From Thermus antranikianii DSM 12462 (GTDB taxonomy: Bacteria > Deinococcota > Deinococci > Deinococcales > Thermaceae), in NCBI RefSeq assembly GCF_000423905.1, contig NZ_AUIW01000011.1, positions 1-64,000 on the forward strand: a DNA stretch of 64,000 nucleotides, read 5' to 3'. Made by a program: the position numbers and the translations under genes. The notes under the pieces are model-generated. The model ran no database searches and was not told where the DNA came from. It worked only from the letters and a program-made list of their open reading frames with translations. Shown here piece after piece: positions 1,355 through 28,154 of this stretch; position 1 is the stretch's first letter; every line of letters begins with the position of its first letter.

Positions 1355-4300
1355 ATGAGCCCTTCCAGGGAAGAAGTTGTTGCCCACTACGCTGACAGGC
1401 TTCACCAAGTTCTTCAGAAAACCATAGCGCAGAACCCCAACGAGGCTGAGTTCCGAAGAGCGGTAGAGCCTCTATTGGAGGAGTTTTTACGGGAAATGGG
1501 CCTCGAGCCCCTAGCCCGAGCAGAGTACACCTTAGCACAGGGACGGGCCGATGCCATCTTTAATCGCTTGGTCATCGAGTACGAGCGCCCCGGTGTCCTC
1601 AAGCCCAAGCCAGACGCCGCCACACGGCATGCGGTGCAACAGGTTAAGGATTACCTGTCCGGCATCGCCCAGAGGGAGCGGCATGCCAAGGAACGCCTAG
1701 CAGGTGTGGCGTTTGACGGGCGCTATTTGATCTTCGTCCGGCACATGGGGGAAAGGTGGGTGGAGGAACCTCCCGTGGAGGCCAATCCCCACTCGCTCAA
1801 GCGCTTCCTCACCTGGCTTGCGGGCTTGGCTTCGGGGATTGCCCTGACCTCGGAAAACCTCAACCGGGACTTCAGCATAGAGCAATTGCGCACCCAAACC
1901 ATCCTCCGGGGGCTTTACCAAGCTTTGGAAAAGGCCCTGGCGGAAGAGGGTCTGGTCCGCCAGCTCTTTGAGCAATGGCGCATCTTCTTCAGCGAGGCCA
2001 TAGACTACTCCGAAACCTTTGGCGGGCGCAAGTTGGAACCGCTTAAAAAATGGGTGCGCAAAGCAGGTCTCCACATCCAAACCCCAGAAGAAGCCGAGCG
2101 TTTCTTCTTCGTCCTCCACACGTACTTCGCCCTATTGGCCAAGCTGCTCGCCTGGCTGGCCCTTTCCCGCCACATGGGGGTTAGGCTGGGAGCCCCGGTG
2201 TTCTCTGCCCTTGCTGCCGCAGACGGGGAAACCCTGCAGAAGAGGCTTGGGGAGATGGAGTCGGGAGGCATATTCCGGCAGTACGGCATCCTCAACCTTC
2301 TGGAGGGGGATTTCTTCGCCTGGTACCTTCACGCCTGGAGCAGCGAGGTGGAGCGCGCCCTCCGTGCCCTCATCGAACGCCTAGATGAGTACGACCCCAC
2401 CACCCTCTCCCTCTTCCCCGAGGAAACCCGGGACCTTTTCAAAAAGCTCTATCACTACCTCTTACCCCGGGAAATACGCCACAACCTGGGGGAGTACTAC
2501 ACACCGGATTGGCTCGCATGGCGCCTCCTGGTGCAGCTGGACAATACCTTTTTCGCCGGAACCCCCTCGCCCAATGACGAAAAGTTACGCCAGAAGCTCC
2601 TTAGCACCCGATTTTTAGACCCCGCATGCGGATCCGGTACTTTCCCGGTCCTTGTCATCGGAAGGATGCTGGAGTTGGGCAGATTGTTGATGGTTCCGGA
2701 GAGGGACCTCTTAGAAGCCATCCTCAAGAACGTGGTGGGCTTCGACCTCAACCCCCTGGCCGTCCTCACGGCACGGGTGAACTATCTACTGGCCATTTCC
2801 GACCTCCTTCAGTACCGCCAGGGGGATATCACCATACCCATTTACCTGGCCGACTCGGTCCGTACACCCGCCGAGGGGCAGGACCTTTTTAGCCAGGGCA
2901 TCTTCGTCTTCCCTACCGCGGTGGGTGATTTCCAGGTGCCGGCAGCTCTGGTGACTGCCCCTAAACGTTTCGACCGCTTCTGCGAGATCTTGGAAAGCAG
3001 CATCCGGTCCGAGGTAGACCCGCAAGCCTTTTTGGAACGCACCCGCAGGGAGCTGGACCTTAACCCAAGCGAATGGGATGACAATGCCCGTAAGCTGGCT
3101 GAGGAGCTTTATACCAAGCTTCTAGACCTTCACAGAAGAGGTCTCAACGGCCTATGGGCGCGGCTTCTCAAGAACAACTTCGCCCCCCTAACTGTGGGAC
3201 GGTTTGACTACATCGTGGGCAACCCGCCCTGGATTAACTGGGAACACCTGCCCGATGAATACCGTGAAAGCATCAAACACCTCTGGCTCCGTTACCGGAT
3301 AGCTGGCTCCTACACAGGTGGGCGTCCCCGGCTCGGAGCGGTCAAGGTGGACATATCCGCCCTCATGACCTACATCGTGGTTGACAACTTGCTCAAAAAT
3401 GGCGGCAAACTGGGCTTCGTCATCACCCAATCGCTCCTGAAAACTGCAGCGGGGGCTGGATTCCGGCGCTTAAGCATCCCTACGGAAAAGGGCAAGGAAG
3501 TCCCTCTTCGCATTGTGTACGTGGACGACATGGTGGACCTCAACCCCTTTGAAGGTGCTTCTAACCGAACCGCTGTAATCGTGCTAGAAAAAGGTAAGCC
3601 AACCCAGTACCCCGTGCCCTATACCGTGTGGCGCAAGAACAGGGGCGTGCGCTTCACCTACGATAGCACCCTGGAGGACGTACAGGCTGCCACACGCCGG
3701 CTCCAGTTCCAGGCCCAACCCGTGGACCCCGACAACCCCACCTCTCCCTGGCTCACCGCTCGCCCGAAGGCGCTGCGCGCCGTGCGCAAAATCCTAGGCC
3801 AGTCCGACTATGAGGCTCACGCTGGCGTATACACCGGAGGGGCAAATGCCGTTTACTGGGTAGAACCAGTACTGAAACGCCCCGATGGGCTCTGGGTAGT
3901 GCGCAACCTGACCGAAGGGGCCAAGGTGAAGGTAGAGGAGGTAACCGAAACCATTGAGCCTGATCTTCTCTATCCACTCCTTCGTGGCCGCGATGTGCAG
4001 CGCTGGCGGGCTGAACCTTCAGCGTGGATAATCATCCCGCAGGACCCTAACAACCCAAGCCGGGCCTATCCGGAGGCAAAACTCAAAGTTGACTATCCTA
4101 GACTTTATGCCTACCTTAAGCAATTTGAATCCGTACTACGCCGACGGGCTGCTTTTCAGCAGATCCTTTGCAAGCGTGAGCCTGAGTTTTACGGAATCAT
4201 GGACATTGGCCACTACTCCTTCTCCCCCTGGAAGGTGGTGTGGACAAGGCTCGCCAAGATTGAGGCGGCGGTGGTTGGCTTGCATGGGAGAAAACCAGTC

Positions 4301-18316: not shown

Positions 18317-19630
18317 TTAATCCCCTCGGGCCAGGAGCTCATAGAATCGCTTCAGAACTGCAATGCCCTTTTCCAGGTTGACCAGGTCAAACTTCTCGTT
18401 GGGAGCGTGGAGGTTGTCGTCGGGAAGCCCTAGGCCCAAGAGAACCACGGGCGCATGAAGGGCATCCTGGAGCTCCGCCACCACCGGGATGGTCCCTCCC
18501 TCCCGGGTGTACACGGGGGGCCTGCCCCAAACCTCCTCCAGGGCCCTGGCCATGAGGCGCATGGGGGGGCTGAAGGGATCGGTGAGGACCGGCCTACCCC
18601 CGTGGAGGCGGAGGATCTCCATGGTGTAGCCGGGCGGGCAGATTTCCCGCAGGTAGGCCTCCACCTGGCTGGCCACCTCCTCGGGGTCCTGGTCCGGCAC
18701 CAGGCGCAAGGAAACCTTGAAGCCCGCCTCGGCGGGGATCACCGTCTTAGAGCCCTCCCCCTGGTACCCTCCCCAGATGCCGTTCGGATCCAGGGTGGGC
18801 CGGGTCCAAAGCCTCTCCAAGGGGCTATAGCCCTCCTCCCCGGGCAGCACCTCCACCCCGAGCTCCCGCCTCAAGGCCTCCTCGTCCAAGGAGGGCCAGA
18901 GCCTTTTCTCCTCCTCCGAAACCGGCCGCACCCGGTCGTAAAGGCCGGGAACCAGGATCTTCCCAGTTTTCTCGTCCTTTAGCTTGGAGAGAATCCACCC
19001 CATGGCCTGGATGGGGTTCGGAGCCACGCCGCCAAAGCTTCCGGAGTGGAGGTCCCGCCGGGCCCCCTTCAGGCGCACCTCCAAATAGGCCAGGCCCCTT
19101 AGGCCATAGGTGAGGGTGGGGGTGAAGGGGGCGAACATGGCTCCATCGGAGATGAGAACCACGTCGGCTTGGAGCTTCTCCCGGTGCTCCCGCACGAAGG
19201 GCAGAAGGCTCGGGCTTCCGATCTCCTCTTCCCCCTCCACCAAGAACTTCACGTTCACCCGGGCGGGCAGGCCCTCGAGGGCCGCCACATGGGCCCAAAG
19301 CTGCCCCTTGTCGTCGGAGGCTCCCCGGGCGTAGACCCGTCCCTCCCGCACCGTGGGAACGAAGGGGGGGTTTTCCCAAAGCTCCAAGGGATCCGGGGGC
19401 TGGACGTCGTAGTGCCCGTAGACCAGGACCGTGGGGGCCTTGGGATCCAGGAGGCGCTCCGCGTAGAGGATGGGATGTAGCGGGGTCTCGTGGAGCTCCG
19501 TGCGAAAACCCCTCTCCCTAAGCCTCTCCGCAAGCCAGAGGGCCGCCTTACGAACGTCCTCCTTGTGGGCTGGGTCGGTGGATACGGAGGGGATGGACAG
19601 GAACTCCAAAAGGGGCTCTAGCGCATTCAC
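18317..19630 (-). CDS. M20-family dipeptidase/peptidase
   Basis: 437-residue zinc aminoacyl-peptide hydrolase. The metal ligands are in place: GHYDVQPP (His), ARGASDDKG (bridging Asp), EGEEEIGS (catalytic Glu and ligand Glu), LISDGAMF (Asp) and the final histidine in [12 protein letters not shown]. The dimerisation domain lies roughly at residues 190-350. Start is GTG at 19630, overlapping the stop of the HspR-like gene (GTGA), so the peptidase is made from the regulator's message. Length and motifs fit the cytosolic non-specific dipeptidase group. Confidence 0.92.
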
Positions 19631-19980
19631 GCCCCCATGCTACTCTCTTGGGGAATCTCTTGGGGGAGGGATTTGCCCTCCTCCAGGAGGAGGAGCTTCA
19701 GCCGGGCCACCTCGGCCTCAAAGCGGGCCTGCAGGGCCTCCAGCTCCGCCCGAAGCCGCATGATCTCCTCCACCCCCGCCAGGTTCACCCCAAGCTCCTG
19801 CGTCAGGCGGCGGATCTCCCGGAGCTTCTCAATGTCCCGCTCCGAGTAAAGCCGGGTCTTCCCCCCAGACCGCTTCGGCTTGATCAAACCCTTCCGCTCG
19901 TAAAGCCTCAGGGTCTGCGGGTGCATCTCCAACAGCTCCGCCGCCACCGAGATCACGTACACGGGACGGTCCTTGTCCAT
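19627..19980 (-). CDS. hspR: MerR-family regulator, HspR-like
   Basis: 117 residues. The helix-turn-helix [29 protein letters not shown] and the following wing and helix ([31 protein letters not shown]) match HspR, the repressor of dnaK-type heat-shock operons in actinobacteria and Deinococcus-Thermus. A C-terminal coiled coil ([18 protein letters not shown]) follows. No chaperone gene is adjacent, and no HAIR inverted repeat (CTTGAGT/ACTCAAG) is visible in its own upstream region, so autoregulation through HAIR is not supported. It is the first gene of an operon with the M20 peptidase. A GGAGGGAG site precedes the ATG. Confidence 0.78.
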
Positions 19981-20020: not shown

Positions 20021-20026
20021 ATTATA
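20021..20026 (-). promoter_or_regulatory. -10 box of the hspR promoter
   Basis: A perfect TATAAT on the minus strand overlaps the stop codon of the upstream iclR gene. The start codon is about 40 bases downstream with a Shine-Dalgarno, so this transcript has a leader. Confidence 0.5.
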
Positions 20027-20780
20027 AAGCGGGCACAAAACCTAGGCGCAAGGAAGCTTTCCTGGCCGCCTCCACCACCCGTGGGGCCAGGCGGTGGGCC
20101 TCCTCCAGGGAGAGGCGGCTGGCGGGGGCGGAGAGGGACAGGGCGGCCACCACCTCCCCCCCGGGGCCAAAAACGGGAGCGGCCACACAGCGCACCCCCA
20201 GCTCCCTTTCCTCGTTGTCCAGGGCGTAGCCCTTCCGGCGCACGGTTTCCAGCTCCCGCTTCAGGTCCTCGAGGCGGGTCAGGGTAAAGGGAGTATAGGG
20301 CACCAGGGAAAGCCCCTCGGGAATGCCCCGGAAGGCGAGAAGAACCTTCCCCACCCCCGTGGCGTGCAGGGGAGCCCGGGAGCCTGGAGCAGTGAAGAGC
20401 CGAACCAATCTGGCTCCCTCCGCCTGGTCCAAATAGAGGGCCTCTCTCCCCGCTGGCACCGCCAGGTTCACGCTCTCCCCCGTTTCCGCTGCCAGGGCCT
20501 CCATCTCCGGGCGCACCGCAAGAAGCAGGTTCTGCCTGGGATAGACCTGCCCCACGACAAAAGCCTTGGGACCCACCCGGTAAACACCCCTTTCCTCCTC
20601 CACGAAGCCGTGGCGGACCAGGGTCTGGAGGAGGCGGTAAAGGGTGCTCTTGGTAAGCCCCGTCCGCTCTGCCAGAGGGGAAAGCCCGGCCTCCTTAAGC
20701 TCCGCCAGGGCCTGAAGCACGCTCAAGCCTCGCTCCAAGGTTTTCACTTCCTCGGCTCCTTTCCTCCTAGGCCGTGGCAT
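20022..20780 (-). CDS. IclR-family transcription regulator
   Basis: 252 residues: an N-terminal winged helix (LERGLSVLQALAELKEAGLSPLAERTGLTKSTLYRLLQTLVRHGFV) and a C-terminal GAF-like effector domain (about 85-250) with the conserved LYLDQAEGARLVRL, LHATGVGKVLLAF and ELGVRCVAAPVFGPGGEVVAALSLSAP segments. The start MPRPRRKG at 20780 is preferred because a -10 box ends 7 bases before it; an ATG three codons earlier lies inside that box. It is divergent from the malate synthase/glycolate oxidase operon with a palindrome exactly between the promoters, so it very probably controls that operon, with glyoxylate or glycolate as a plausible ligand. Confidence 0.9.
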   Translation of the reverse strand: MPRPRRKGAEEVKTLERGLSVLQALAELKEAGLSPLAERTGLTKSTLYRLLQTLVRHGFVEEERGVYRVGPKAFVVGQVYPRQNLLLAVRPEMEALAAETGESVNLAVPAGREALYLDQAEGARLVRLFTAPGSRAPLHATGVGKVLLAFRGIPEGLSLVPYTPFTLTRLEDLKRELETVRRKGYALDNEERELGVRCVAAPVFGPGGEVVAALSLSAPASRLSLEEAHRLAPRVVEAARKASLRLGFVPAL

Positions 20781-20787
20781 AGGCCCC

Positions 20788-20869
20788 ATGCTAGCACCTA
20801 CCGGATGGTTTTTCAAGGAGCAAAAAATTGTTTTGCTTCTTGACAAATTCCGGCCCCTTCCCTTAGGCT
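20788..20869. promoter_or_regulatory. Divergent iclR/malate synthase promoters with central palindromic operator
   Basis: Minus strand: TTGAAA (20816-20811), 17-base spacer, TAGCAT (20793-20788), then 7 bases to the iclR ATG. Plus strand: TTGACA (20840-20845), 18-base spacer, TAGGCT (20864-20869), then 9 bases to the malate synthase ATG. Between the two -35 boxes lies a palindrome AGCAAAA-N5-TTTTGCT (20819-20837) with a 2-base gap to each -35. Both transcripts look leaderless. The palindrome is the obvious IclR binding site. Confidence 0.72.
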
Positions 20870-20878
20870 CAAACCACC

Positions 20879-22441
20879 ATGAAGGGCGTGGAGATCCTCA
20901 AAGATCACCCCCTCCTCAAGGAGGTGCTCACGGAAGAGGCCTTGAGGTTCGTGGTGGCCCTGCACCGGGAGTTCAACCCCGTGCGCAAGGCGCTTTTGGA
21001 GCGCAGGAAAACCCTCTGGGAAAGGTACAAGGCCGGGGAAAAACCGGACTTTCTCGAGGAAACCGCCTTCGTGCGGGGCGGGTCCTGGCAGGTGGCAGAA
21101 GCCCCACCGGATCTTTTGGACCGCCGGGTGGAGATCACCGGTCCTGTGGACCGCAAGATGATCATCAACGCCCTGAACTCCGGGGCCAAGGTCTTCATGG
21201 CGGATTTCGAAGACGCCCTCTCCCCCACGTGGGACAACGTGATCCAGGGGCAAAAGAACCTCTATGACGCCGTCCGCCGCCAGATTGACTTTGTAAGCCC
21301 CGAGGGGAAGGAGTACAAGCTGAAGGAAAAGGTGGCCACCCTGGTGGTCCGGCCCCGAGGCTGGCACCTGGTGGAAAAGCACGTGCGGGTGGACGGGGAG
21401 CCCATCTCTGCAAGCCTCTTTGACTTTGGCCTTTACTTCTTCCACAACGCCCACGAGCTCCTAAGGCGAGGAAGCGGCCCCTACTTCTACCTGCCCAAGC
21501 TGGAAAGCCACCTCGAGGCCCGGCTTTGGAACCAGGTCTTCAACTTCGCCCAGGACTACCTGGGCATCCCTCGGGGCACCATCCGGGCCACGGTGCTCAT
21601 CGAAACCATCCTGGCGGCCTTCGAAATGGAGGAGATCCTCTACGAGCTTAAAGAGCACGCCGCTGGGCTTAACGCCGGCCGCTGGGACTACATCTTCAGC
21701 TGCATCAAGAAGTTCGCCACCACCGCCCCCATCTTCCCCGACCGGGCCCAGGTCACCATGACCGTGCCCTTCATGAAGGCCTACACCGAGCTTCTGGTGA
21801 AGTCCTGCCATATCCATGGGGCCCATGCCATCGGGGGCATGGCTGCCTTCATCCCCAGCCGCAAGGACCCCCAGGTGAACGAAAGGGCCTTCCAGCAGGT
21901 GCGGGCCGACAAGGAGCGGGAAGCCTCCCAGGGATTTGACGGCACCTGGGTGGCCCACCCCGACCTGGTGCCCGTGGCCCAGGAGGTCTTCGACCGGTAT
22001 CTGGGGGATAGGCCCCACCAGAAGCACGTGAAGCGGGAGGACGTCCAGGTGAGGGCGGAGGATCTTCTGAACTTTGAGGTCCCGGGGGGCAAGGTGACGG
22101 AGGCAGGCCTTCGCAACAACATCTCCGTGGCCCTCCAGTACCTGAACCAGTGGCTCCTCGGCAACGGGGCGGCCGCCATCTTCAACCTCATGGAGGACGC
22201 CGCCACCGCCGAGATCAGCAGGGCACAGCTCTGGCAATGGGTGCACCGGCAGGCCACCTTGGAGGACGGCCGTACGGTCACCCCTGAGCTTTACCAAAAG
22301 ATCAAGGAAGAGGAGCTCGCCAAGCTGGGAGGACGGGAGGTTGGCCGCTATAAGGAGGCCGAGGAGATCCTGGACAAGCTGGTCCTCTCGGAGGAGTTCA
22401 TCGAGTTTCTGACCCTGGTGGCCTACGATTACCTGGACTGA
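20879..22441 (+). CDS. aceB: Malate synthase (A-type)
   Basis: Condenses glyoxylate and acetyl-CoA to malate. 520 residues, normal for A-type enzymes. Conserved blocks: [17 protein letters not shown] (metal/glyoxylate side), [33 protein letters not shown] (catalytic glutamate region), [32 protein letters not shown] and the C-terminal [16 protein letters not shown] with the following helical cap. No isocitrate lyase gene is nearby; the following glycolate oxidase genes supply glyoxylate instead. No Shine-Dalgarno precedes the ATG, consistent with the leaderless promoter. First gene of a five-gene operon. Confidence 0.95.
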
Positions 22442-22517
22442 GACCAAAAGGATCCGGGCTAGGAAGGGGTGGGGCAGGCCATCCGCCCCTTCCGGTAAGG
22501 TGGGATAGGAGGTGGCA

Positions 22518-23921
22518 ATGGGGTTCCTGGAAGAGCTTAGGGCCCTCTTTCCCCCGGGGAGGCTGCTGACCAAGGAGGCGGAGCTTGTCCCTTACGAGTC
22601 CGACGCCCTCACCGCCTACCGCAGGCGTCCCCTGGCCGTGGTGCTTCCCGAGCGGAAGGAAGAGGTGGTGGAAGCGGTGCGCCTCTGCTACCGCCACGGG
22701 GTGCCCTTTGTGGCCCGGGGAAGCGGCACCAGCCTCTCGGGAGGCTCCTTGCCCGTGGAGGGGGGCCTGGTCATCGCCCTCAACCGCATGAACCGCATCC
22801 TACGCCTGGACCCCAAGGCCCGGATCGCGGTGGTGGAGCCCGGAGTGGTGAACCTGGAGGTTTCCCGGCAGGCAGCTCCTTTTGGCCTCTATTACGCCCC
22901 CGATCCCTCCAGCCAGCCCATCTCCACCATCGGTGGGAACGTGGCCTTCAACTCCGGCGGGGCCCACTGCCTGAAGTACGGGATGACGGCGGGCCACGTG
23001 CTGGCCCTCGAGGTGGTCACCCCCCAAGGGGAGGTGGTGCGCCTGGGCGGGGAAGGCCTTGAGACCGTAGGTCCCGACCTCCACGGCTTTTTCGTGGGCA
23101 CCGAGGGGCTTTTGGGAGTAGCCCTGGAGATCACCCTGAGGCTTCTTCCCAAGCCCGAGGCCTACCACACCCTGCTGGCCGCCTACGGGAGCCTCGAGGC
23201 CGCCGGCAACGCCGTGAGCCAGGTGATCCGAAGCGGGCTCCTCCCCGGGGCCATGGAGATCATGGACCGCTTGGCCATAGAGGCCGCCGAGGCAGCGGTG
23301 AAGGCCGGCTATCCCCGGGTGGAGGCCCTCCTCATCGTGGAGCTGGAAGGCCCCAAGGAGGAGGTGGAGGAGGAAGCCAAACTCCTGGCCCAGGTGATTA
23401 AAGAAAGCGGGGCCTTGGAGGTGCGCGTCGCCCAAAGCGAGGCGGAGCGCCAGGCCATCTGGAAGGGGCGCAAGGCTGCCTTCAGCGCCGTGGGAAGGCT
23501 TTCCCCCGATTACATCGTCCAGGACGGGGTAGTGCCCCGAAGCCGCCTGGGGGAAGCCCTGAAGGAGATCGAAAGGCTTTCCCAGGAATACGGCCTTAGG
23601 GTGGCCAACGTCTTCCACGCCGGGGACGGAAACCTTCACCCCCTGGTCCTCTACGACGGCAAAAAACCTGGGGAGCTGGAGCGGGCCGAGGAGCTGGCGG
23701 GAGAAATCCTCAAGCTTTGCGTGCGCCTAGGAGGGTCCTTGACCGGGGAACACGGCATCGGGGTGGAGAAGAAGGAGTACATGCCAAAGATGTTCGCCCC
23801 GGAAGACCTCCTGGCCATGGAACGGGTCAAGGAGGCCCTGGACCCCCAAGGCCTCGCCAACCGGGGCAAGGTGCTACCCGGCCACGGGCAAGGCCCGCAT
23901 CTAGGAGAGGTGTATGCCTGA
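22518..23921 (+). CDS. glcD: Glycolate oxidase FAD-binding subunit GlcD
   Basis: 467-residue FAD-linked oxidase. The N-terminal PCMH-type FAD domain shows [53 protein letters not shown] and [16 protein letters not shown]; the C-terminal cap has [16 protein letters not shown] and [14 protein letters not shown]. The ATG at 22518 has AGGAGGT 4 bases upstream; a GTG two codons earlier overlaps that site and is rejected. Its last 8 bases overlap glcE. Together with GlcE and GlcF it oxidises glycolate to glyoxylate and passes electrons to the membrane quinone pool. Confidence 0.94.
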
Positions 23922-24960
23922 GGTCCGTGCCAACTCTCTGGAAGAAGTACAGGAAGCCGTGCGCACCTATCCCCGCCTGCGCCCCAAGGGGGGTGGGAGC
24001 AAGCCAGCCCTCTCCACCCCCAAGGACGGGGAGACCCTCCTGGATCTTTCGGGCCTCAGGGGCATCCTGGAGTATGCCCCTGAGGAGTTCGTCTTCACCG
24101 CCTATGCCGGCACACCCCTTAAGGAGATAGAGGAAACCCTACGGGCCCACGGCCAGTACCTGCCCTTCCACCCACCCCTGGTGGAGCAGGGGGCCACCCT
24201 TGGGGGTACGGTGGCAGCAGGGCTTTCCGGCCCCATGCGGGAACGGTTTGGGGGCCTGAGGGACTTCATCCTGGGAGTGCGCTTCGTGGACGGGGAAGGA
24301 AGGGTGGTGCGGGGCGGAGGCAAGGTGGTGAAAAATGCCGCTGGCTTCCCTTTCCACCGCCTCATGGTAGGTTCCCTGGGAGCCTTCGGGGTCATGGTGG
24401 AGCTTTCCTTCAAGGTCTTCCCCTCCCCCAGGGCCACCCAGACCCTACGGCTCACCTATGGGAGCCTAGCGGAGGCCCTTGCCGCTATGGAACGCCTCCG
24501 GGTGCTTCCCCTGGATCTTCTGGCCCTGGACCTCATTCCCCCCGCCACCCTGGAGATTCGGCTAGGGGGGTTCCCCGAAAGCCTGGGGAAAAGACTAAAA
24601 CGACTACAGGAAATCCTGCAAAAGGAAGGCGAGGTGCTGGCGGAGGACGAAACCCACTGGGAAGGGGTGCGGAACCTCCGCTTCCTGGAGGAGGCCCCCA
24701 TCTGGGTCAAGGTTCCCTCCACCCCCGCCTGGGTGCCCAAGCTGGAAGACCTGCCCCTAGGGCCCAGGCGGTACCTGGCAGGAGGGGAACTCCTCTACGC
24801 CGGGATGGAGGCCAAGGGACTGGCATCCCTTAGGCAGGCAGGGATTCCCCACCTGGTCCTAAAGGGCGCCGAGGATGCCCTCTTCCCCCACCCGCCCGAG
24901 GCCTTTTTCCGCAAGCTTAAGCTGGCCCTGGACCCCAGGGGCCGTTTTCCCTTAGGGTGA
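23914..24960 (+). CDS. glcE: Glycolate oxidase subunit GlcE
   Basis: 348-residue second FAD-domain subunit. Conserved segments are [81 protein letters not shown]. It lacks the long cap of GlcD, as usual for GlcE. The start overlaps the end of glcD by 8 bases and glcF follows after 4 bases, so the three subunits are produced in a coupled way. Confidence 0.93.
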
Positions 24961-24964
24961 GAGC

Positions 24965-26233
24965 ATGCAGCACCGCATACCCGTGGAAACCCTGGGCAGG
25001 GAAGGGGAGGTGATGGCCCACGCCATCGAGGCCTGCGTCCATTGCGGCTTCTGCCTTCCCACCTGCCCCACCTACCTGGTCCTGCAGGAGGAGATGGACT
25101 CCCCCCGGGGTCGGATCTTCCTGATGAAGGAGGTCCTCGAGGGGAACCTCTCCCTGGAGGAAGCCCTTCCCTATCTGGATCGTTGCCTGGCCTGCCAAGC
25201 CTGCGTTACCGCCTGCCCAAGCGGCGTCCCCTACGGCGAGCTCATCGCCACCTTCCGCCTGCACACCGAGAGCAAGCGCCACCGCTACCCCCTGGAACAG
25301 GTCTTTCGCCGGTCCCTCCTCCGCATCCTCCCCTACCCTGAGCGCTTTCGGCCCCTGGCCGAGCTGGGAAGCCGGCTAAAACCCCTCCTCAAGCCCCTCC
25401 CCCTGCCCAAGGCCCTTAAGGCTCCCATCGCCCTGCTCCCGGACCGCCTACCGGACAGGGAATCCTACCAGGAGGTCTACCCCGCCAAGGGCCCAAGGCG
25501 GGCCAGGGTGGGCATCCTCCTGGGCTGCGCCCAGCAGGTCCTGAGGCCCTCCATCAACCGGGCCACCATCCGGGTCCTCCAGGAAAACGGGGTGGAGGTG
25601 ATAGCCGCCAAGGAACAGGTCTGTTGCGGGGCCCTAAACCTCCACGCCGGGGACAAGGAGGGGGCCAGGGCCTTGGCCCGCACCAACCTGAGGGTTTTCC
25701 GGGAGGTGGACTACGTGGTCACCAACGCCGCCGGTTGCGGCTCGGGGATGAGGGAATACCCCCTTCTCTTCCTGGGGGAACCCGAGGAGGAGGAGGCCAG
25801 GGCCCTGGCCGCCAAGGTGAAGGACCTCACCGTCATCCTGGACGAGCTGGGCTTCATCCCCCCTCCCCCGCCCCCAAGGCCCCTCAGGGTGGCCTACCAC
25901 GACGCCTGCCACCTGGCCCACGCCCAGGGGGTGCGGGAGGCCCCAAGGAGGATCCTTAAGGCCTCTGGGGTGGAGGTGCTGGAGCCCAAGGAGTGGGAGA
26001 TCTGCTGCGGCAGCGCCGGCACCTACAACCTCTTCCAGCCCGAGATCGCCGAGGTTTTGGGCAGGAGAAAGGCGGAAAACCTTCAGGCCACCCAGCCCGA
26101 ACTGGTGGTCACGGGCAACATCGGCTGCCTCACCCAGATCCAGGCCTATTTGGACAAGAGCATCCCCATCCTGCACACGGCGGAGCTTCTGGAGATGCTT
26201 TATGAGGGGAAACCTCCCCTCGTCCAAGGATGA
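24965..26233 (+). CDS. glcF: Glycolate oxidase iron-sulfur subunit GlcF
   Basis: 422 residues. The N-terminus carries two ferredoxin-type 4Fe-4S motifs, CVHCGFCLPTCPTY and CLACQACVTACPSG. The rest contains two cysteine-rich CCG domains (EQVCCGALNLHAGD and WEICCGSAGTYNLFQPEIAEVLG, with DACHLAHAQGVR before the second). These domains occur in heterodisulfide-reductase-like and lactate/glycolate oxidase subunits and pass electrons to the membrane. The stop overlaps the start of the glycerate kinase gene (ATGA). Confidence 0.94.
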   Translation: MQHRIPVETLGREGEVMAHAIEACVHCGFCLPTCPTYLVLQEEMDSPRGRIFLMKEVLEGNLSLEEALPYLDRCLACQACVTACPSGVPYGELIATFRLHTESKRHRYPLEQVFRRSLLRILPYPERFRPLAELGSRLKPLLKPLPLPKALKAPIALLPDRLPDRESYQEVYPAKGPRRARVGILLGCAQQVLRPSINRATIRVLQENGVEVIAAKEQVCCGALNLHAGDKEGARALARTNLRVFREVDYVVTNAAGCGSGMREYPLLFLGEPEEEEARALAAKVKDLTVILDELGFIPPPPPPRPLRVAYHDACHLAHAQGVREAPRRILKASGVEVLEPKEWEICCGSAGTYNLFQPEIAEVLGRRKAENLQATQPELVVTGNIGCLTQIQAYLDKSIPILHTAELLEMLYEGKPPLVQG

Positions 26234-27450
26234 GCCCTCTCCTAGAAGCCACCTTCCGCCAGGCCCTCGAGGAAGCCCACCCCTACCGCCTCACCCTTAG
26301 GGCCCTTCCCAAGGCCAGGCCCCACCTGATCCTGGCAGTGGGCAAGGGAGCCTCTTGGATGCTAAAGGCGGCCTTGGATCGCTATGGGGAGGTACCCTAC
26401 CACCTCACCCTGCCCAAGGGGCAGGATGCCTTGGGGCTACGAGCGGTCTTCGCCGGCCATCCCTTGCCCGATGGGGAAAGCCTAAGGGCGGCCCAGGAGG
26501 TCCTGGAACTCCTCAAGGGGCTTTCCCCCAAGGCGCGGGTTTTAGCCCTGGTTTCGGGCGGGGGAAGCGCCCTTTGGTGCCTGCCCCTGGGGATCTCCTT
26601 GGAGGCGAAGCGGGCCCTCACGGAGGCCCTCCTGAAAAGCGGGGCCAGCATTAGGGAAATCAACGCCGTGCGCAAGCATCTCTCCCAGGTGAAGGGGGGA
26701 AGGCTTCTAAAGGCCACCCAAGCCCGGCTTCACGTGCTTCTCCTCTCCGACGTGCCAGGCGATGACCCCGGGGTTATCGCCTCGGGACCCTTCCATCCCG
26801 ATTCCAGCACCTACCTCGAGGCCCTGGCCGTCCTGGACCGGTATGGCCTGGCCTTTCCCGAAGCCAGGCGGGTGTTGGAAGAAGGACTAAGGGGCCGGTT
26901 CCCCGAAACCCTGAAGCCCCAAGACCCCGCCCTAAAACGGCTGTCCTACCGGATCGTCGGGCGCAACCTGGACCTCCTAAAGGCCGCCCAAGGGTTCTTA
27001 AGGCGGCAAGGCTACCGGGCGGTGATCCTCTCGGACCGCTTCGGCGGCGAGGCCCGGGCCCTGGCCCGCTTCCATGCGGAGCTGGTGGAAACCCTCCGCG
27101 CCCATGGCCTTCCCTTCAAAAAGCCCCTTTTCCTCCTCTCCGGGGGGGAAGCCCAGGTACAGGTGAGGGGGAAGGGTAGGGGGGGCCGGAACCTGGAGTT
27201 CCTCCTCGCCCTCTACGCCCACCTCCAAACCCCCCTTTACGCCTTGGCCGCGGATTCCGACGGGCTGGATGGACCCTCAGAAGCGGCGGGAGCCCTCCTC
27301 ACCCCGGAGGTCTGGAACCTGGGGCTGGACCCAAGGCCCTTCTTGGAAGCCAACGACAGCTACGGCTTCTTTGAACAGGCGGGAACCCTCCTAAAAACCG
27401 GGCCTACCGGCACCAACCTCAACGACTTCCGCCTCCTCTTTGTAGACTGA
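26230..27450 (+). CDS. Glycerate 2-kinase (MOFRL/GckA family)
   Basis: 406 residues of the class II glycerate kinase family (DUF4147 plus MOFRL domain). LALVSGGGSALWCLP, INAVRKHLSQVKGGRL, LLLSDVPGDDPGVIASGPFHPD mark the N-terminal domain; LLSGGEAQVQVRGKGRGGRNLEFLLALYAHL and ALAADSDGLDGPSEAAGALL mark the MOFRL domain. It phosphorylates glycerate to 2-phosphoglycerate. Glycerate can arise from glyoxylate via tartronate semialdehyde or from hydroxypyruvate, so the gene extends the glycolate operon to a second exit into glycolysis. Cotranscribed with glcF. Confidence 0.92.
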   Translation: MSPLLEATFRQALEEAHPYRLTLRALPKARPHLILAVGKGASWMLKAALDRYGEVPYHLTLPKGQDALGLRAVFAGHPLPDGESLRAAQEVLELLKGLSPKARVLALVSGGGSALWCLPLGISLEAKRALTEALLKSGASIREINAVRKHLSQVKGGRLLKATQARLHVLLLSDVPGDDPGVIASGPFHPDSSTYLEALAVLDRYGLAFPEARRVLEEGLRGRFPETLKPQDPALKRLSYRIVGRNLDLLKAAQGFLRRQGYRAVILSDRFGGEARALARFHAELVETLRAHGLPFKKPLFLLSGGEAQVQVRGKGRGGRNLEFLLALYAHLQTPLYALAADSDGLDGPSEAAGALLTPEVWNLGLDPRPFLEANDSYGFFEQAGTLLKTGPTGTNLNDFRLLFVD

Positions 27451-27454
27451 AAAG

Positions 27455-27772
27455 GTGGAGTACCCGGAGCTGGCCCCGGTCCTCGAGGCCATCCTCAAAA
27501 CCGTCCCGGCCCAGAAGATCATCCTCTTCGGCAGCCGGGCCCGGGGAGAGGCCCACCCGGAAAGCGACTACGACCTCCTCATCGTGGTGCCCCCAGAGTA
27601 TAAGACCATGCGGGTGTGGAAAGACCTGTACCTGGCCGCCAGCAAGGCCCAAAAAGGCTTCAGCCTGGACCTGGTCTTGGCCACTGAGGAGGATCTGGCC
27701 AGGTACCGGGACGCCTGGATGACCATCTACCCGGAGGCGCTAAAGGAGGGCCGGGTGCTCTATGCCGCGTGA
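27455..27772 (+). CDS. MNT-type nucleotidyltransferase (antitoxin-like)
   Basis: 105-residue minimal nucleotidyltransferase: GSRARGEAHPESDYDLLIVV carries the GS and D-x-D motifs of the polymerase-beta fold. Such proteins pair with HEPN proteins; in studied pairs the MNT partner AMPylates the HEPN toxin. Start is GTG, 4 bases after the glycerate kinase stop, with TGTAGA 8 bases upstream of it as a possible -10. It overlaps the HEPN gene by 11 bases. The first 21 codons occur again, nearly identical, at 28235-28298. Confidence 0.88.
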   Translation: MEYPELAPVLEAILKTVPAQKIILFGSRARGEAHPESDYDLLIVVPPEYKTMRVWKDLYLAASKAQKGFSLDLVLATEEDLARYRDAWMTIYPEALKEGRVLYAA

Positions 27773-28154
27773 GGCCTCGGACCCCTGGACCTGGCTTACC
27801 CGGGCCAAGAGCAACCTGGCCAGGGCCCGCCTCGGGCGGACCAGCCCGGAGGTGGCCTGGGAAGACCCTTGCTTTGACGCCCAGCAAGCTGCGGAAAAGG
27901 CCCTCAAAGCCCTCCTCATCGCCCTTGGCATCCCTTTTCCCAAAACCCACGACCTGGCACGGCTTTTGGAGCTGATCCGTCCCCATCTCCCCGTGCCCGT
28001 GGAGCTAGAAGCCCTGGCCCGGCTTAACCCCTTCGCCGTGGCGGGCCGCTACCCAGGGGACCTCCCTGAGGCCACGGAAGAGGACTGGAAAGAGGCTCTT
28101 CTTCTAGCCGAGCAGGCCGTGGCCTGGGCAGAAAGGGTCTTGGCTGGCGATTGA
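27762..28154 (+). CDS. HEPN-domain protein (partner of MNT)
   Basis: 130-residue all-helical protein. The core FDAQQAAEKALKALLIALGIPFPKTHDLARLLELI is the HEPN signature, but the R-x4-6-H motif of RNase-active HEPN toxins is not present: the histidine of THDL has no arginine 4-6 residues before it. It is therefore either a non-nucleolytic type (as in Haemophilus HI0074) or an inactive toxin. Start ATG at 27762 overlaps the MNT gene. It follows the glycolate operon directly and could be read through from it. Confidence 0.85.
   Translation: MPREASDPWTWLTRAKSNLARARLGRTSPEVAWEDPCFDAQQAAEKALKALLIALGIPFPKTHDLARLLELIRPHLPVPVELEALARLNPFAVAGRYPGDLPEATEEDWKEALLLAEQAVAWAERVLAGD

Follow-up and report, generated by a model that had tools for sequence, protein, structure and literature searches.

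A conserved symmetric block between the divergent iclR and malate synthase promoters of Thermus is a candidate shared IclR operator

The locus and its divergent promoters

The window is a 64,000-nt stretch of the Thermus antranikianii DSM 12462 genome (contig NZ_AUIW01000011.1) in which a gene for an IclR-type regulator and the gene for malate synthase A are divergently oriented, with 98 bases separating their start codons. The genes, the central palindrome and the promoter elements are listed in Table 1. The relatives are Thermus; among the named records, T. tenuipuniceus and T. scotoductus are the closest. Directly 3' of the glycerate kinase gene (27455–28154) are small genes for nucleotidyltransferase-like and HEPN-like proteins that, from inspection of their translations by eye, resemble an MNT/HEPN toxin-antitoxin pair. 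On its other side iclR adjoins a gene (19627–19980) for an HspR-like MerR regulator that consists of a single 117-aa domain, as apparently is also the case in T. brockianus; at most other Thermus loci this protein is a tandem duplication (fused) of about 231 aa, and the window's version seems to have lost one repeat. The glcD gene of Thermus parvatiensis (2911–4271 of its locus) gives two overlapping matches in different frames, which suggests that it is frameshifted in that species.

Table 1. Genes and control elements of the iclR–malate synthase locus (window positions).
Feature	Position	Strand	Basis or remark
IclR-type regulator gene iclR, 252 aa, IclR HTH and IclR_C domains	20022–20780	-	start ATG 20780; -10 spacing and conservation
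iclR -10 TAGCAT, extended TGC	20788–20793 (20793–20788)	-	spacer 17; ATG 20780 after 7 nt
iclR -35 TTGAAA (20816–20811) and proposed outer IclR box H1 (TTTTTCAA on the + strand)	20809–20816	-	conservation
Central palindrome AGCAAAA-N5-TTTTGCT (AGCAAAA-AATTG-TTTTGCT)	20819–20837		axis 20828; inner boxes H2 20820–20826 and H3 20830–20836
Malate synthase -35 TTGACA (20840–20845) and proposed outer IclR box H4 (TTGACAAA)	20840–20847	+	conservation
Malate synthase -10 TAGGCT	20864–20869	+	spacer 18; ATG 20879 after 9 nt
Malate synthase A	20879–22441	+	TIGR01344, 790 bits (cut-off 594.5)
Glycolate oxidase subunit, GlcD-like	22512–23921	+	glcD models, score under curated cut-off
Glycolate oxidase subunit, GlcE-like	23914–24960	+	NF008439, score under cut-off
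Glycolate oxidase subunit GlcF	24965–26233	+	NF008434, slightly over cut-off
Glycerate 2-kinase (DUF4147/MOFRL)	26230–27450	+	Pfam

The initial annotation had the palindrome centred exactly between two opposed -35 boxes, and the window sequence agrees: the boxes are 23 bp apart, and 2 bp separate each of them from the palindrome. Its spacing of 7–9 bases between the -10 boxes and the start codons also holds, at 7 nt for iclR and 9 nt for malate synthase, provided that iclR starts at 20780. An alternative start at the in-frame ATG at 20789 was rejected, as it overlaps the -10 box and is absent in relatives. In an automatic scan, the iclR promoter was the sole promoter-like site in 8.7 kb.

Leaderless expression is common in the Deinococcus-Thermus phylum, with a -10 motif TANNNT about 6–7 bp ahead of the start codon (PMC12340547). 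The iclR spacing corresponds to this arrangement and its transcript is predicted to be leaderless; that of malate synthase lies slightly outside, and the transcript is predicted to start near 20876 and to be near-leaderless, not strictly so, with a leader of 2–4 nt. The malate synthase gene of the window has no Shine-Dalgarno sequence. Among relatives, TAnnnT recurs about 7–8 nt ahead of the iclR start codon, and TA(A/G)GCT at equal spacing forms the malate synthase -10 box across Thermus. The position of TAGGCT is kept in most Meiothermus-type loci as well, although the start codon there is mostly shifted downstream and preceded by a Shine-Dalgarno sequence; because the hexamer stays put, this -10 box is independently supported. 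Malate synthase has next to no leader in Thermus and in Meiothermus granaticius, and a leader with a Shine-Dalgarno sequence, from the same promoter, at most Meiothermus-type loci.

Conservation and symmetry of the intergenic block

Loci were gathered by way of the IclR protein, taking the upstream region of every iclR relative and not using the motif as a criterion. This gave 47 Thermaceae loci, 28 with an IclR that is 67–100% identical and 19 of the Meiothermus type with an IclR of about 50% identity. Malate synthase is the divergent neighbour of iclR at every Thermaceae locus tested for its neighbour, and the upstream block is present in 47/47. All 28 loci with a close IclR carry TTTTTCAA and TTGACA; overall, TTTTTCAA is found in 45/47 and ATTTTCAA in the remaining two, both of the Meiothermus type. 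The distance between the -35 boxes is exactly 23 bp in 45 of the 47 loci, and 22 and 24 bp in the other two. A pattern search with TTTTTCAA-N23-TTGACA returned one match per genome, at this locus, in 43 Thermaceae genomes and matches were rare elsewhere in the class, while the reversed pattern matched once in 111 genomes and in none of those 43.

Across a set of 40 distinct sequences, TTGACA is invariant and the next AA nearly so (82–100%), and the TT ahead of TTTCAA is invariant or almost so; conservation thus exceeds the -35 hexamers on both sides. The unit conserved across the family is a 37-bp block, 20809–20845 (to 20847), that includes both -35 boxes and further conserved A residues. The architecture is conserved upstream of malate synthase in other Thermus, where the initial annotation had proposed to look for the palindrome. 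Its proposal that the palindrome is the operator stands as far as there is a symmetric element between the promoters; the symmetric block is larger and takes in the -35 boxes themselves.

The 7-bp arm first described was also only partly borne out. In 22 distinct Thermus sequences, the positions at half-distances 3 to 7 from the axis form Watson-Crick pairs in 17 to 22 cases, dropping to 9/22 at half-distance 8 and 7/22 at half-distance 9. Conservation in Thermus thus covers the axis and arms of about 5 bp (CRAAA-N5-TTTYG) but not the two bases at the outer end of each 7-bp arm. The 7-bp arm of the window is accordingly the conserved 5-bp arm extended by two bases that are in part fortuitous; in the aligned loci it is the axis that is conserved, not the exact word. 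On this axis, Meiothermus-type loci retain the palindrome in part, as RYG...CRY. The exact palindrome has a single occurrence in the 2.16-Mb genome of the window, and matches with up to three mismatches (47, against 39 in a reversed control) are near background, giving no sign of a second operator or of a regulon.

The arms co-vary. Some 80.5% of cells are paired at the true register, against 37–51% when the register is slid, and 1 in 500 shuffles attained the covariation score, with relatedness not fully corrected; a strict Watson-Crick shuffle restricted to the four variable pairs, which ignores relatedness, gives a modest p = 0.03. On the IclR tree, several Thermus lineages and most of the Meiothermus type have a G-C pair at half-distance 6; three separate Thermus lineages have A-T on both sides, among them the clade of the window, where it has replaced G-C. 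Given the family-wide conservation of the -35 boxes and their 23-bp spacing, and the covariation of the arms, these features go beyond chance. A shared IclR operator for the glycolate/glyoxylate genes is well supported by these sequence comparisons, and the block looks like a well-preserved example of a familiar type of bacterial switch with a known kind of operator.

The regulator, its boxes and competing readings

The iclR product scores above the Pfam cut-offs for the IclR HTH domain (PF09339, 62.1 bits; cut-off 22) and for IclR_C (PF01614, 146 bits; cut-off 24). The top-scoring named family is BhcR (NF045644, 227.6 bits; curated cut-off 350), and the model for the E. coli-type glyoxylate bypass repressor IclR (NF008601) gives 151.2 bits against a curated cut-off of 380; as both NCBIfam scores fall under their cut-offs, we rejected naming the protein BhcR or IclR sensu stricto. 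The glyoxylate/pyruvate pocket has been described as G160, A161, D212, S239 and S241 in E. coli numbering (PMC11323563). G160, D212, S239 and S241 are retained in the Thermus regulator, as is a further E. coli pocket residue from outside that list, C222, and A161 is replaced by V. Judged by eye in an alignment of relatives, sequence differences in the recognition helix do not clearly track whether the box has A or G. We found no paper on an operator for this regulator (TTHA0507 in T. thermophilus HB8, annotated 'acetate operon repressor') or on a glycolate-use switch in Thermus, and no experiment on the regulator itself.

Regulators of the IclR family mostly control themselves and one or two neighbouring operons, and a survey of their operators (Suvorova and Gelfand 2021, PMC8222616) distinguishes group 1 (GKTYCRYW3-4RYGRAMC) and group 2 (TGRAACAN1-2TGTTYCA) motifs, and also describes sites with three alternating boxes, and tandem sites whose centres lie 18–22 bp apart; Deinococcus-Thermus appears in its Table 2 with group 1 motifs only. 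Measured on these motifs, the G-to-G spacing is 8 for group 1 with W3 and 12 for group 2 with N1. The Thermaceae block contains four alternating candidate boxes, in the iclR -35 box, the left arm, the right arm and the malate synthase -35 box, spaced 8-12-8 bp. The two pairs, each with a distance of 8, are centred at 20818 and 20838, 20 bp apart, which is within the range for tandem group 1 sites, an arrangement already known and of the tetramer type. As to sequence, H2 fits RYGRAA in many relatives, the inner boxes of the window read GCAAAA, with A in place of G, and the outer boxes agree with the consensus at 6/7 (H1) and 5/7 (H4) positions. From the 8-12-8 spacing and the conservation past the -35 hexamers, for which a simple -35 box gives no reason, the palindrome is most economically read as the two inner boxes of an operator that has four, is of the tetramer type and includes both -35 boxes. 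Because the outer boxes double as -35 boxes, this reading is unprovable from sequence alone: they are inseparable in that way from ordinary -35 constraint, and the flanks of other Thermus -35 boxes offered too few promoters for comparison.

We infer that the regulator binds here as a tetramer, represses in both directions and is induced by glyoxylate. The 37-bp block would combine two divergent promoters with a single compound IclR operator, and both -35 boxes would be covered by a tetramer with one dimer on H1-H2 and the other on H3-H4. When bound it would obstruct sigma at both promoters, turning off transcription of malate synthase-glcDEF-glycerate kinase and restricting the regulator's own synthesis; oxidation of glycolate would place glyoxylate in the C-terminal pocket and release IclR. 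We give about even chances to this compound operator that represses both promoters until release by glyoxylate. Repression of both is the first choice because IclR bound at this position would obstruct sigma on either side. More tentatively, and with the balance somewhat against it, the -35 hexamers may be both sigma contacts and outer half-sites of the tetramer, which would explain why the spacing is frozen at 23 bp though the IclR proteins are only about 50% identical, and one tetramer would switch both directions. The A for G in the inner boxes, the departures in H1 and H4 and the partial palindrome of the Meiothermus type count against the compound tetramer operator.

The initial annotation had a single IclR dimer touching both polymerases. 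Its divergent promoters, symmetric element, IclR-family gene and malate synthase-glcDEF-glycerate kinase operon stand, but a tetramer is likelier, since the 37-bp block fits four boxes at 8-12-8. A dimer on the 19-bp palindrome only, with the geometry of group 2 as in KdgR and the -35 boxes as plain promoter elements, would suit the inner-box spacing of 12 and a pocket like that of IclR/AllR, which have palindromic, A/T-rich sites (PMC8222616). It leaves the invariant bases outside the hexamers and the fixed outer 8-bp spacing unexplained, and is at odds with the Meiothermus type, where the palindrome is eroded and the outer elements invariant, and with the exclusively group 1 motifs surveyed in this phylum; we consider it unlikely. 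Slightly ahead of it among the alternatives, though itself improbable, is an activator: IclR at the same site, whose centre is at about -48 relative to the start of malate synthase, would bring RNA polymerase to the glc operon while repressing only its own gene, the mode of action proposed for Paracoccus BhcR. A site centred near -48 would suit an activator equally, and BhcR, the closest annotated relative of the regulator, activates a divergent glyoxylate operon that has a predicted palindrome ahead of the -35 box (PMC11323563). The weak malate synthase -10 box (TAGGCT, 18-bp spacer) points the same way. Against this, a symmetric site at equal distance from the two promoters would need an extra asymmetry to have opposite effects on them; the conserved block extends into both -35 boxes, and an activated promoter would have no need of -35 boxes as close to consensus as these.

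Two further readings do without IclR at the site. The stretch is A/T-rich within a G+C-rich genome and lies in polymerase reach of both promoters, as a shared UP-like element kept for polymerase contact and mutual competition would, but such an element needs neither dyad symmetry nor paired G-C position changes nor strict box spacing, and the iclR gene adjoins it at every locus, all of which makes this explanation very improbable. Hardly credible is that the element is conserved as a site of the CRP-family regulator TTHB099. In T. thermophilus HB8, this protein bound TGTTTTTCAAGATACA, which lies between TTHA0506 and TTHA0507 and overlaps boxes H1 and H2, in vitro with a KD of 78 nM, but binding was about 35-fold weaker than to the consensus and neither gene was significantly changed in the mutant (PMC7662524). 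The TGT...ACA ends are unconserved (GGT...GCA in the window; ACG, AAG or GTA in others), and with no conserved TGT-N10-ACA across Thermus we rejected this site as the cause of conservation.

For the preferred reading, a compound tetramer operator, the 37-bp block gives the exact bases to mutate and two predicted transcription starts. It is also a clean natural system in which to ask if IclR tetramers bind through tandem boxes and if one element can act both as -35 box and as half-site, and it could provide thermophile genetics with a compact divergent promoter, possibly responsive to glycolate or glyoxylate.

Comparison with known systems

Isocitrate lyase is located elsewhere in Thermus (contig C7, 26535–27791, in the genome of the window), and its conserved upstream motif in Thermus, GGTGTAG...ACACACC...TTACACCCTACAC, is unlike the IclR block; an IclR operator ahead of this gene was therefore rejected. 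In the HB8 TTHB099 mutant, isocitrate lyase is strongly up (PMC7662524). E. coli IclR, the aceBAK repressor, resembles the Thermus regulator in its family, in malate synthase as the target (the proposed one in Thermus) and in most ligand-pocket residues, but its operator TGGAAATNATTTCCA (PMC8222616, Table 1) differs from the Thermus element, E. coli iclR is not divergent from aceB, and the Thermus operon has glcDEF and is without isocitrate lyase.

BhcR of Paracoccus denitrificans (PMC11323563) likewise belongs to the IclR family, and its gene is divergent to an operon for glyoxylate assimilation, where a palindrome has been predicted on the upstream side of the -35 box. It differs in activating the beta-hydroxyaspartate cycle, and Paracoccus glycolate oxidase is under a GntR repressor, whereas in Thermus malate synthase and glcDEF are in one locus. 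The tandem group 1 and multi-box operators (PMC8222616) share with the Thermus block alternating boxes, of RYGRAA type in the survey and partly so in the Thermus block, spacings of 8 and 12 bp, centres 20 bp apart and, as proposed for Thermus, control of the regulator together with a neighbour. The Thermus block differs from them in that its outer boxes coincide with -35 boxes, its four boxes are symmetric on one axis and, in the clade of the window, its inner boxes carry A in place of their central G.
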